Assembly: GCF_905175385.1 (NCBI RefSeq) | Contig: NZ_HG992750.1 | Span: 372,001 to 436,000, forward strand | Origin: Vibrio sp. B1FLJ16 | GTDB lineage: Bacteria; Pseudomonadota; Gammaproteobacteria; Enterobacterales; Vibrionaceae | Direction: 5' to 3' | DNA length: 64,000 nucleotides | In this document: piece after piece, positions 18,712 to 23,071 of the stretch | Position numbering within the stretch: position 1 is the first letter of the stretch | How the letters are laid out: every line of letters starts with the position of its first letter | The notes under the pieces: generated by a model | Told to the model about the DNA's origin: nothing | What the model saw: the letters and a program-made list of their open reading frames with translations, nothing else | Databases searched by the model: none | Translations under genes and position numbers: made by a program

Positions 18712-19380
18712 ATGAAGAAAGCACTTATCGCAATAGTCGTTATGTTGTTGCTTGGAGGCGTTGGTGCTGGTATCTACTTCTTTTTCATCCCAAATGACCA
18801 GCAAGAACGAGTACTGGAAGAGGCTTCACCAGAACCTCAAGTGCAGGAAGAAACGCCAAAACCGATTATGGATTTGGAAGCTTTACCACCTGAAGTTACA
18901 GAATACTACGTCATCGACCGCCAGCTCAGTGTGTACAATAAGCCTAATCACAATGCGTTAGTCGTCGACACACTTTATAAAGGCGAAAAAGTCGCTGTGC
19001 TGGAAAAAACGAGCGGCTGGTATCGTATATCCAATTATTTGGTATATAAAGAAGGCGGCGAGGAAACGGCTGAATGGTTAAACGCAAATGGGCTGTCTGA
19101 TGCAGAGCCGGTGATACAAGAGCAGGAGCGTCTGGAAATTCTCGACGGTTATCTACAGAAGTCAGACGATTTAGTGGTGCATCTCGATATGTTCCGAAAC
19201 AAGACACAGAAGTTATTAGACGATAAGACATGCGATCCCAATGACTTCGAAGAGCTTGGCGGGTGGATTCGTTCAGTGACTTATAAAGGGCGTAATGTCT
19301 ACTTCGTATACTGTGGCGGATTAGAGCAAGAGAATAAAATTTATCTGGACGTTGATAGCGGAGAGATATTTTATCGTTGA
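18712..19380 (+). CDS. Membrane-anchored SH3b-domain protein, 222 residues
   Basis: One N-terminal membrane span (about residues 4-26, uncleaved in appearance) is followed by an acidic linker (about 30-60) and a bacterial SH3-like domain (about 65-130: LSVYNKPNHNALVVDTLYKG, then EKVAVLEKTSGWYRIS). SH3b domains in envelope proteins usually bind peptidoglycan or other wall peptides. The C-terminal 90 residues (QKSDDLVVHLDMF, then TCDPNDFEELGGWIRSVTYKGRN) are unassigned and contain two cysteines. An AAAGGAAACAC ribosome-binding site precedes the ATG. It lies directly upstream of vemP on the same strand with a 134-bp gap; a functional link is not shown. Confidence 0.75.
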   Translation: MKKALIAIVVMLLLGGVGAGIYFFFIPNDQQERVLEEASPEPQVQEETPKPIMDLEALPPEVTEYYVIDRQLSVYNKPNHNALVVDTLYKGEKVAVLEKTSGWYRISNYLVYKEGGEETAEWLNANGLSDAEPVIQEQERLEILDGYLQKSDDLVVHLDMFRNKTQKLLDDKTCDPNDFEELGGWIRSVTYKGRNVYFVYCGGLEQENKIYLDVDSGEIFYR

Positions 19381-19514
19381 ATCACAACAATAGTTGTGGC
19401 GCAAAGTTGGGATGTGAGATTTAGATCTTTTTAGTTGTTAAGCCCGACTAATAGGCATAGTATCGACCATGTCGAGTTTGCAGGCTCGGCTTTGTCTTCT
19501 TTTAGTGAGTTCTC

Positions 19515-19994
19515 ATGCCTCTGATCTATATGCGAAAATTGCTTTTATTGTTGCTTGCAATGGTATTATTACCAATGCAGGTTTCGGCTGAGCAAGTAGA
19601 TCAAACTCTTTATTTACCACACTTCTCTAAACTGCAACCATTTGTTGCTGGTAGTACGACCGCGAACGCTGATGTTGATTTTTCTGTAGTATCAGAGCAA
19701 TCAACGCAAGTCCCCGTATCTGAAGGTCATAACACCTCAGATACATTGGCGATTATTGATCCTCAACGTAGGGCTTCTTATTTACGTGAAGGGCTGGATG
19801 AAGGAGATGTCGACTCTATTGGCGATCTCAACTCGTCCTTCTGCGCGACCGTGGAGTACACATATCGTTTAGTCGCAATAAATTGGCGTCAAAATCAGTC
19901 TGTATTCTGTCATCTCAATAGTGAGCATCGTATTTCTGGCTGGAAAGAAACCAATGCGATGTATGTTGCACTCAATAGCCAGTTTTCTGCTTAA
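19515..19994 (+). CDS. vemP: VemP, translation-arrest export monitor controlling secD2F2
   Basis: VemP is a secreted peptide that stalls its own ribosome when its Sec-dependent export is slow, as happens at low Na+. The stall raises production of the Na+-independent SecDF2 encoded downstream (known from V. alginolyticus). The product here is exactly 159 residues with a signal peptide (about 1-25). The C-terminal arrest segment reads HRISGWKETNAMYVALNSQ at residues 138-156, placing the known P-site residue Gln156 at codon 19980-19982, three codons before the stop. The match of length and position supports the ATG at 19515 over the in-frame ATG at 19530. Next on the strand are a 333-bp structured leader and secD2. 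Confidence 0.93.
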   Translation: MPLIYMRKLLLLLLAMVLLPMQVSAEQVDQTLYLPHFSKLQPFVAGSTTANADVDFSVVSEQSTQVPVSEGHNTSDTLAIIDPQRRASYLREGLDEGDVDSIGDLNSSFCATVEYTYRLVAINWRQNQSVFCHLNSEHRISGWKETNAMYVALNSQFSA

Positions 19995-20007
19995 CCCCTC
20001 CTGACTA

Positions 20008-20076
20008 TGCACATTATGTGCAAACTTGATCCGATGCCTGTATTCATCAGAGTGGCTTAACATTCAGATCACTCTG
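20008..20076 (+). promoter_or_regulatory. Hairpins in the vemP-secD2 leader
   Basis: Just after vemP, TGCACA (20008-20013) pairs with TGTGCA (20017-20022), and CAGAGTG (20048-20054) pairs with CACTCTG (20070-20076). An anti-ribosome-binding-site-like CCCCTCCT lies at 19995-20002. Together with the element at 20115-20276 and the hairpin at 20297-20314, almost the whole leader can fold. Which of these the stalled ribosome affects is not known from sequence. Confidence 0.45.
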
Positions 20077-20114
20077 TACCCGAAATGTATTCCGGGCAGA
20101 AGTCATCGTGTCTC

Positions 20115-20276
20115 ATACCAATCACAGTAAATAAGTAATCAGAAATCGCGTAGTAAAAATGCTTGAGAACAAGGCGGAAATTTTCGATAAGTAGTTACTC
20201 TACAATCAAAATTGACAACGCAGTTATCGAGTATTTTGGCCAGCTAGAATGACCAGTTATTTACTACGATTGGTAT
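20115..20276. repeat. 162-bp element with 20-bp terminal inverted repeats (MITE-like)
   Basis: The left end ATACCAATCACAGTAAATAA (20115-20134) is the inverse of the right end (20257-20276) at 18 of 20 positions. No reading frame is inside. The sequence resembles a dispersed intergenic repeat I recall from Harveyi-clade Vibrio genomes; that recollection was not checked. It occupies half the leader between vemP and secD2, so its transcript would form a long hairpin bringing the vemP end closer to the secD2 start. Confidence 0.75.
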
Positions 20277-20296
20277 TGCTCCTCCCAAATTAAGAA

Positions 20297-20314
20297 CTTC
20301 ACTAACTGGTGAAG
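20297..20314 (+). promoter_or_regulatory. Hairpin covering the secD2 ribosome-binding site
   Basis: CTTCAC (20297-20302), loop TAACTG, GTGAAG (20309-20314). The right arm overlaps the GAAGAG ribosome-binding site (20311-20316) before the secD2 ATG at 20328, so folding would lower translation. The bases AACTGG (20304-20309) could instead pair with CCAGTT at 19979-19984, which includes the VemP Gln156 codon. Confidence 0.5.
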
Positions 20315-20327
20315 AGATGACGTTTAT

Positions 20328-22166
20328 ATGAAAAACACACTAAGACCTCCGAAAAGCAGGAAACTGCTTAACCACTATTCGGCATGGAAGTACGTCGTGC
20401 TGATCGCGACAGTCATGATACTGACCCTGAGTGCTATTCCAACCTGGTTTGGTGAACAACCAGCAATACAGGTGACATTTTCCGAACAAAGTGATGGCAA
20501 GTTGTCTGTTGTACAGCTCAGTCAACTGCTGAAAACCAATCATATCCCAACTGATAAAATCATTGAAAAAGATGGAAAAACAACCATTGTTTTTGCCAGT
20601 GAATCTGACCAAAGCAAAGCCAGAACGTTACTTAACAATGTGCTGGACAAAGAGGACAACATTACATTTTCATATGTATCCGTTGCACCAGATTGGCTGA
20701 ATGAAATCGGTTTTAACCCAATCAAGCTTGGTCTTGATCTTCGCGGCGGCGTTCAATTTTTGTTGAACGTTGATGTGAACAAAGCGTTCGAAGAGCAGCG
20801 AGTTGCATTAATCGATGAGATCAAATCTGACTTACGTGAGCAACGTGTACGTGGCGTTCAGGTTCGGGCAGAAAGCGGTAATCGTATTTCTGTTGTCAGT
20901 GAAAGTGATCAGGCACTTGCCGGAGTGAACCAATTTCTGCAGCAAAACTATCCAAGCTGGGTTGCAAAGAGTTCTTCACGTGGGCTTGTTCTTGAACCAA
21001 GTGAACAGAACATCCAGGAATTTCAGTCAACCACATTAGAGCAAAACCTGAAGATCATGCGCGGTCGTATCGAAGAATTGGGTATCACAGAAGCTTTGGT
21101 TCAGCGTCAGGGTAAAGAGGGTATCCGCATTGAATTACCTGGCGTACAAGATCCAGCACAAGCCAAAAATGTGATTGGTGCAACGGCCAGCCTGGCTTTC
21201 TACGAAGTCAAAGACGCAAGCAAAGCGCACAGCAGTCAGGATTTGGTACTAAAGGATAACGAAGGCCGTACCGTGACGCTGAGCAAACGTCCGGTATTAA
21301 CAGGAGAACATATTGTTAATGCTCGTGCCGGTGCCGACAAAATGGGTATGTCGGAGGTTAACATCTCGCTTGACCATGCTGGCGGCAAGAAAATGAGTGA
21401 TTTCTCTGCAACTCATATCGGTAAGCCAATGGCGACGGTATACCGCGAGTACAAGACAAATGAACGGGGCGTTACTGAACGTAGTGAGCGAGTCATTAGT
21501 GTTGCGACTATCCAGTCTCAGCTTGGCAGTCAGTTCCGTATAACTGGGGCTGGCAGCATGGATGAAGCACAGCAACTGGCACTTTTACTCCGTGCAGGCT
21601 CTCTGACAGCGCCTGTCACAATTGTTGAAGAACGTACAATCGGAGCTTCTCTTGGTGCTGAGAATATTCAAAACGGCTTTGCCGCACTCTCCCTGGGTAT
21701 GGGACTAACCCTGGTATTTATGGCGCTTTGGTATCGCCGTTTAGGCTGGGTCGCAAACGTAGCTTTGTGTGCCAACATGCTGTGTTTACTGGGGCTTATT
21801 GCATTGCTGCCGGGCGCAGTACTTACTTTACCCGGCATCGCGGGTTTGGTGCTCACCGTTGGTATGGCTGTCGACACCAACGTGATTATCTTTGAACGTA
21901 TTAAAGACAAAATGCGCGAAGGCCGAAGTTTCGCACAGGCTATCGACCTTGGCTTTGACAGCGCATTTGCCACCATCCTTGATGCCAACATTACCACCAT
22001 GATTACCGCTGTGATCTTGTACGCCATCGGTAACGGCCCGATCCAGGGCTTTGCATTAACGTTAGGTTTAGGTTTGTTAACCAGTATGTTTACCGGCGTA
22101 TTTGCCTCGCGAGCAATGATCAACTTAATTTGGGGTCGCGACACCCGTCGTGATGTGAGGGTTTAA
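20328..22166 (+). CDS. secD2: Protein translocase subunit SecD, second paralogue (SecD2)
   Basis: Inner-membrane component that uses the ion gradient to pull exported proteins out of SecYEG. The 612-residue product has one N-terminal span (about 22-42), a large periplasmic P1 domain (about 45-440, with the GLDLRGGVQFLL motif) and five C-terminal spans. The conserved Asp of the channel is in GMAVDTNVIIFERIKD. The position behind vemP identifies it as the inducible paralogue, reported as Na+-independent in V. alginolyticus. The other secDF copy would be elsewhere in the genome. secF2 starts 2 bp after its stop. Confidence 0.93.
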   Translation: MKNTLRPPKSRKLLNHYSAWKYVVLIATVMILTLSAIPTWFGEQPAIQVTFSEQSDGKLSVVQLSQLLKTNHIPTDKIIEKDGKTTIVFASESDQSKARTLLNNVLDKEDNITFSYVSVAPDWLNEIGFNPIKLGLDLRGGVQFLLNVDVNKAFEEQRVALIDEIKSDLREQRVRGVQVRAESGNRISVVSESDQALAGVNQFLQQNYPSWVAKSSSRGLVLEPSEQNIQEFQSTTLEQNLKIMRGRIEELGITEALVQRQGKEGIRIELPGVQDPAQAKNVIGATASLAFYEVKDASKAHSSQDLVLKDNEGRTVTLSKRPVLTGEHIVNARAGADKMGMSEVNISLDHAGGKKMSDFSATHIGKPMATVYREYKTNERGVTERSERVISVATIQSQLGSQFRITGAGSMDEAQQLALLLRAGSLTAPVTIVEERTIGASLGAENIQNGFAALSLGMGLTLVFMALWYRRLGWVANVALCANMLCLLGLIALLPGAVLTLPGIAGLVLTVGMAVDTNVIIFERIKDKMREGRSFAQAIDLGFDSAFATILDANITTMITAVILYAIGNGPIQGFALTLGLGLLTSMFTGVFASRAMINLIWGRDTRRDVRV

Positions 22167-22168
22167 TC

Positions 22169-23071
22169 ATGGTTAAAACAATACAAAAACATATTCGTAA
22201 AGTGCGTTATTTCACTACGCTGGTTTCTGTCATTTTGACCGTAATCGCGATTGCAGCGCTAGGGATGAGAGGTTTAAATCTGGGTCTCGATTTTACCGGA
22301 GGCATGGTAACCGAGGTCAAAATAGATGAGCAGTTAACCAGCCAGGATTTGCTAAGCGCACTACAGCCAAAACGCGGAGAGTCAACATCTGTGACGCGTT
22401 CAGGAGAGGATGGGCGCTGGGTTATTCGTTATGCTGCGTCGGAACAAAGCCAGGCTCTGCCAAGTGTCGCGGATGTTCTGAAGTCGATCTCACACCGAGT
22501 TGATGTCGTGAGTAACAGCATCGTTGGCGCACAGGTAGGCCAGGATTTGTTTGAGCAAGGTGGCTTAGCTCTGCTTATTTCAGTACTAACTATCCTGGCG
22601 TACTTATGTTTCCGCTTTGAATGGCGTTTAGCCAGTGGCTCGTTGTTCGCTCTCGCACATGATGTCGTGCTTGTATTAGGTTTCTTTGCCATTACCCAGA
22701 TGGAGTTTAACCTCACAGTCTTTGCAGCAATTTTGGCAATTCTTGGCTACTCCCTGAATGACTCAATTATTATCTCTGACCGGATTAGAGAATTACTGAT
22801 TGCCAAGCAGAGTTGGAAAACAGAAGAGATCAATGATCAGGCAGTGATTGCAACATTTTCCCGCACCATGGTGACTTCAGGTACCACTCTGATCACTGTA
22901 GGCGCATTGTGGATGATGGGTGGAGCTGCATTGGCTGGTTTCTCTACTGCAATGTTTATAGGGGTGCTTTCTGGTACCTGGTCTTCTATTTCAATCGGTA
23001 CGGTATTGCCAGAGCGTTTGAAACTCGAACCGAAACATTACCTTGCGGTTGAAGTTGATACTGCACCATAG
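22169..23071 (+). CDS. secF2: Protein translocase subunit SecF, second paralogue (SecF2)
   Basis: Partner of SecD2 in the inner membrane. The 300-residue product has a first span (about 15-35), a short periplasmic domain beginning with the LDFTGGMVTEV motif, and five further spans including LGYSLNDSIIISDRIRE, which carries the conserved Asn-Asp pair. Two bases separate it from secD2, so translation is coupled. A strong terminator follows at 23097, closing the vemP-secD2-secF2 unit. Confidence 0.93.
   Translation: MVKTIQKHIRKVRYFTTLVSVILTVIAIAALGMRGLNLGLDFTGGMVTEVKIDEQLTSQDLLSALQPKRGESTSVTRSGEDGRWVIRYAASEQSQALPSVADVLKSISHRVDVVSNSIVGAQVGQDLFEQGGLALLISVLTILAYLCFRFEWRLASGSLFALAHDVVLVLGFFAITQMEFNLTVFAAILAILGYSLNDSIIISDRIRELLIAKQSWKTEEINDQAVIATFSRTMVTSGTTLITVGALWMMGGAALAGFSTAMFIGVLSGTWSSISIGTVLPERLKLEPKHYLAVEVDTAP

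Follow-up and report, generated by a model that had tools for sequence, protein, structure and literature searches.

A Vibrio VemP-SecD2F2 operon with an intact arrest peptide and an altered, repeat-bearing leader RNA

The 64,000-nt stretch of Vibrio sp. B1FLJ16 DNA analyzed here (contig NZ_HG992750.1, positions 372,001 to 436,000; hereafter the window) contains vemP, secD2, and secF2, the genes of an export-monitoring operon with a reserve motor for protein export, in which arrest of the nascent VemP chain destabilizes a stem-loop in the spacer and exposes the secD2 ribosome-binding site (PMC7793623; PMC5449182). In laboratory E. coli K-12 with these genes on a plasmid, SecD2/F2 levels are likewise reported to track VemP arrest (PMC11470409). 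Beyond what an initial annotation of this DNA had described, the RNA half of the operon differs from that of its relatives, as the vemP–secD2 spacer is 333 nt long and carries a dispersed repeat. Among several readings we regard as likeliest, and hold only tentatively, the one in which this altered RNA half has left the operon partly uncoupled from VemP arrest.

The open reading frame at 19515 is, as judged from its sequence, VemP with its arrest site intact. Its sole match in the PDB up to an E-value of 1 was the VemP nascent chain (5nwy_s, E 7.7e-52), which is one sequence across five entries. Because this match spans query residues 25–159, the likeness lies far outside the signal peptide and the arrest motif, and comparison with characterized VemP, the check proposed in the initial annotation, thus bears out the name given there. 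VemP from the locus L010 differs from 5nwy at a single residue over positions 26–159, and by this near identity we take L010 to be V. alginolyticus-like; the window VemP is identical to it at 102 of 159 aligned positions. A putative N-terminal Sec signal sequence was read by eye in an alignment with relatives, and profile searches of Pfam and NCBIfam gave no family for VemP itself. A vemP match is present in at least 92 of 196 same-genus genomes, its own included, a lower bound because the query was a single sequence, and published work lists 339 VemP-like sequences (PMC10987492). VemP-SecD2F2 is an already known system, as had been said, and one further VemP is ordinary.

All 19 residues of the arrest window (codons 138–156) are the same as in L010, HRISGWKETNAMYVALNSQ is found in the C-terminus with Gln at position 156, and the sequence conforms to the arrest motif HRIxGWKETNAMYVxLNxx, the last two positions of which are printed as X (PMC7897499). 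The earlier description of the arrest site as intact therefore stands. Gln156, which had been offered as the marker of VemP, is present but is only a fair marker. Sources conflict on this residue, because PMC7897499 prints X there and PMC5449182 exempts only S141A and S155A as changes without influence within 138–156; in addition, where Gln would be expected in the P site, the VemP-like proteins of L111, L120, L121, and L158 carry His (4 of the 64 loci parsed, the window included, after a tail/start rule removed 34 of 98). Other elements were taken from PMC11470409 and PMC7793623 (Arg85, a short hydrophobic segment, and a (hydrophobic)xP element). Arg85, crucial to stable regulated arrest (PMC7793623), is retained, as is Trp124, the residue that makes a stacking contact with uL22 (PMC5449182). 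Compared to L010, the (hydrophobic)xP element changes from QSP to QVP with Q65 and P67 unchanged, and the hydrophobic segment changes from DSVALFN to DTLAIID, which is similar but charged at its end. Position 132 changes from Tyr to Cys; Y132A is among the changes reported as unimportant to stalling (PMC5449182). None of 19 close relatives has a cysteine at position 110 or 132, and Cys110 and Cys132 of the window protein could, from sequence, form a disulphide. The distant VemP of L029 likewise has two cysteines, elsewhere in the sequence.

The spacer between vemP and secD2 is 333 nt in the window and 142–170 nt in the 19 close relatives (L007–L024 and L155; other start codons would allow shorter alternatives in L018 and L023). 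The extra length consists of a 162-bp palindrome that is MITE-like (resembling miniature inverted-repeat transposable elements), being short, with inverted ends, and present in many copies. With 40 of 59 candidates scored, its own genome has at least 32 matches; 27 of them are near full length when the spacer copy is counted, and the other copies are 75–90% identical. Matches were found in at least 51 of 118 genus genomes, with about seven candidates at most scored per genome, and in none of the 63 other parsed vemP–secD2 spacers. The flanks listed for the copies contain no obvious target-site duplication. No sister genome lacking the repeat was found, as the nearest secD2 was 78% identical when 1001 bases of secD2 were compared with 227 same-genus genomes. 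By title, we found no printed description of a ATACCAAT repeat in Vibrio, and papers on miniature inverted-repeat intergenic sequences of Vibrio did not reveal it in their titles or the starts of their abstracts, neither of which proves absence. Two candidate functions were rejected for this region: a promoter within the repeat, as a consensus scan gave no sigma-70-like promoter in 19380–20340, where shuffles lead one to expect 2.3, and a known RNA family, as there was no Rfam match in 19380–20480.

In the relatives, the leader RNA has a common fold. Four elements were named in the RNAalifold consensus of 18 relatives. In H1, the vemP tail, together with its stop codon and the 8 nt that follow, pairs with the region of the secD2 start; H2 is a hairpin past the vemP stop; H3 is a stem in the middle of the spacer; and H5 is a hairpin at the Shine-Dalgarno sequence. 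When the structure was written from L008, 96.1% of 641 cells paired and five pairs were changed on both sides, and none of 500 shuffles reached either value; these shuffles take no account of relatedness, and the structure was itself drawn from one member of the tested set. A ribosome whose P site holds codon 156 would sit over the vemP tail and stop codon, which form a large part of the H1 5' arm.

In the window, H1 is predicted to be no better than in shuffled sequence. First, 11 of the 19 close relatives have ACACCATC as the 8 nt after the vemP stop, and the other eight depart from it at three positions or fewer; the window departs from it at six. Second, the H1 duplex is worth –3.9 kcal/mol in the window; of 18 relatives, L022 has –3.1 kcal/mol and the other 17 lie between –9.9 and –19.3 kcal/mol. 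Third, 71% of shuffled tails match the window duplex, whereas 5% or fewer do so in 16 of the 18 relatives (the exceptions are L010, at 0.06, and L022, at 0.95). Finally, swapping one arm with that of L008 gave –9.8 or –11.0 kcal/mol, compared to –16.7 kcal/mol for L008 itself, so both arms have changed without compensation. The coordinates of these and the other features are collected in the table.

Features of the vemP-secD2-secF2 region (positions in the window; p, probability in the predicted ensemble)
Feature	Position	Strand	Remarks
vemP	19515-19994	+	159 aa, ATG start; PDB match 5nwy; arrest sequence same as L010
Arrest window, codons 138-156	19926-19982	+	P-site codon expected to be CAG, 19980-19982; positions from PMC5449182
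Place of H1 5' arm (vemP tail, stop, next 8 nt)	19980-20002	+	CCCCTCCT in place of ACACCATC-like sequence
H2, hairpin TGCACA/TGTGCA	20008-20022	+	kept, p 0.91
Place of H3 (20032-20036 with 20104-20108)	20032-20108	+	pairable by eye; p not above 0.3
Palindromic dispersed repeat, 162 bp, MITE-like	20115-20276	+	ends ATACCAATC...GATTGGTAT; arms 27 nt, 81% complementary
H5, hairpin closing on secD2 Shine-Dalgarno region	20297-20314	+	kept, p 0.97
secD2 start region, place of H1 3' arm	20315-20341	+	20316-20321 can pair with 20102-20107 instead
secD2	20328-22166	+	NCBIfam NF009545, 1073 bits (cut-off 728)
H1', secD2 codons 9-13	20354-20366	+	13-bp complement of vemP tail 19980-19992; possible new partner, post hoc
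secF2	22169-23071	+	TIGR00966, 265 bits (cut-off 160)

Folding calculations also predict little effect of a stalled ribosome on the secD2 start. The cost of opening positions –16 to +3 of secD2 was 7.5 in the free window RNA and 7.6 with the ribosome stalled; medians for 19 relatives were 12.3 and 9.4, and the free cost of the window was the lowest of the 20. Three parameter sets with different context lengths gave stall effects of –0.1, –0.1, and –0.6. This predicted failure to switch is not due to the repeat, because the cost without it was 7.2–7.7. Whether the repeat is present or not, modeled stalling thus leaves the secD2 start unopened; this is a weak indication, and the calculation is insufficient to call the switch dead. 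Indeed, the model is itself weak, because L010, nearly identical to a species with proven regulation, barely changes. For loci with multiple possible starts, the opening-cost model mostly used the first start codon, so some low-change loci may have been given the wrong start; a wide-arm version of the H1 duplex took the best-pairing start. Looking in the window for a masking structure that a stalled ribosome would undo, we thus find H1 absent, the Shine-Dalgarno hairpin present, and a stall effect near zero in a weak model.

We tentatively favor the following picture. VemP would be a Sec substrate, and without pull across the membrane its ribosome should stall when codon 156 occupies the P site. 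In most close relatives, folding and geometry suggest that a ribosome halted there would sit on the 5' arm of the helix that masks the secD2 start. In the window, the peptide half is unchanged, both H1 arms are altered, and the self-folding repeat lies between the remaining hairpins. The likeliest result would then be an elevated baseline of SecD2F2 synthesis, governed chiefly by the local Shine-Dalgarno hairpin and less dependent on VemP arrest. The initial annotation had proposed that, if the system works, the strain adapts its Sec machinery to salinity. With the H1 of the relatives missing and a repeat in the spacer, this is not secured, and it is less secure than was assumed because the RNA half differs.

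Several observations weigh against partial uncoupling. The arrest sequence is exactly kept. The two-sided changes in the L008-based comparison all fall in H2 and H5, with none in H1 or H3, and L022 also lacks H1. With wider arms, the window duplex reaches –9.7 kcal/mol (matched by 0.51 of shuffles), and values of 5% or less then hold for no more than 11 of the 18 relatives, and for 34 of the 63 loci other than the window. The opening cost of L010 shifts only from 8.8 to 7.8 (about 1 kcal/mol); 12, 11, and 10 of the 64 loci, the window included, change by less than 0.5 in the three parameter sets, and the change in the window ranks eighth from the lowest of 64. In the same model, L022 changes by about zero, L009 by less than 0.5 in one set, and L017 by less than 0.5 in another. 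At the end of its VemP, L022 has Asn155 and Leu157-like changes.

A rival reading, to which we give a somewhat lower probability, is an ordinary working VemP switch in which the repeat folds on itself in a junction and is neutral, the Shine-Dalgarno hairpin and weaker contacts being sufficient for control by arrest. The repeat with 5-nt flanks indeed folds alone, at –46.7 kcal/mol, and sits between the place of H3 and H5; H2, H5, and the arrest motif are retained, and L010 itself shows little predicted change. This explanation must, however, contend with a window H1 that does not rise above shuffles and with the lack of a predicted stall effect in all three parameter sets.

It is unlikely that the switch has been rewired so that arrest acts via a new partner, with the vemP tail pairing with secD2 codons 9–13 (H1', 13 bp). 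The H1' duplex, at –19.3 kcal/mol, is the strongest of 30 loci tabulated (L025, –17.4 kcal/mol; L010 and L019, –16.5 kcal/mol), with an ensemble p of 0.57, or 0.42 without the repeat, and is equaled by 0.010 of 200 shuffled tails. However, H1' was noticed after looking, the same test gives 0.010 or less for other pairings in several relatives, and H1' competes with a local 6-bp hairpin and begins at nucleotide 27 of secD2, which on general grounds is probably beyond the initiation footprint. Weaker still is the proposal that the repeat itself alters secD2 expression, as a start or cut site or by stabilizing, regardless of VemP stalling, a helix of 20102–20107 with 20316–20321 that would mask the stretch between the Shine-Dalgarno sequence and the start codon: this helix has p 0.77 in free and 0.90 in stalled RNA with the repeat and does not exceed 0.3 without it, but the opening cost of the free RNA is nearly equal with and without the repeat, and the promoter scan and Rfam search described above were both negative.

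A further-reaching reading is less likely than not. A mobile palindromic repeat may have entered the leader and the switch helix decayed or re-paired while the arrest peptide stayed exact, in which case selection would have kept a force-sensing nascent chain after its main RNA read-out changed, for a rewired read-out or another role. What makes the window useful is a naturally occurring operon in which the RNA half has changed and the peptide half has not. With it one can ask where in the leader the signal resides and whether arrest peptides outlast a change of read-out. It is also a reminder that an arrest motif found intact is by itself no proof of intact regulation.

The operon resembles VemP-SecD2/SecF2 of V. 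alginolyticus in gene order, the 159-aa length of VemP, the arrest window, Arg85, Trp124, and the presence of a second secD; it differs in spacer length (333 nt compared to 164 nt in L010), the inserted repeat, the missing H1, the 102 of 159 VemP identities, and the new Cys110 and Cys132. L015, L011, L018, and L014, taken as V. harveyi, V. owensii, V. jasicida, and V. diabolicus, have the same operon and type of arrest motif but, unlike the window, 164–166-nt spacers with the common leader fold and no such repeat. SecM-SecA and MifM-YidC2 are alike in action, in that export-sensitive arrest unmasks a downstream gene, whereas the SecM and MifM arrest motifs differ from that of VemP and are without similarity to it (PMC7897499). 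The 162-bp repeat is like bacterial MITEs in being short, palindromic, and dispersed (reviewed in PMC10969869).

Long vemP–secD2 spacers occur elsewhere, at 372–384 nt in L111 and 297–321 nt in L120 depending on the start codon, both without the 162-bp repeat. In L025 (G191:C2:366678-366717), the loop of the secD2 Shine-Dalgarno hairpin holds a 40-bp palindrome whose 9-bp ends are identical to those of the window repeat. The pattern with 9-bp ends has a single exact match in G191, and with 7-bp ends it occurs at three places compared to one in a backward control; G191 also has three weak relatives of the 162-bp repeat. Because of this control and the weakness of these relatives, the hint of kinship is thin.

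Directly 3' of vemP, secD2 and secF2 are both intact and score above curated cut-offs, which bears out the gene order given initially. A second secD, 45% identical, is located on the other chromosome (C1:624896), and its flanking open reading frames of 109 and 315 aa would fit the size pattern of yajC-secD-secF. Upstream of vemP and on the same strand, 18712–19380 encodes a small protein with a bacterial SH3 domain (PF08239).

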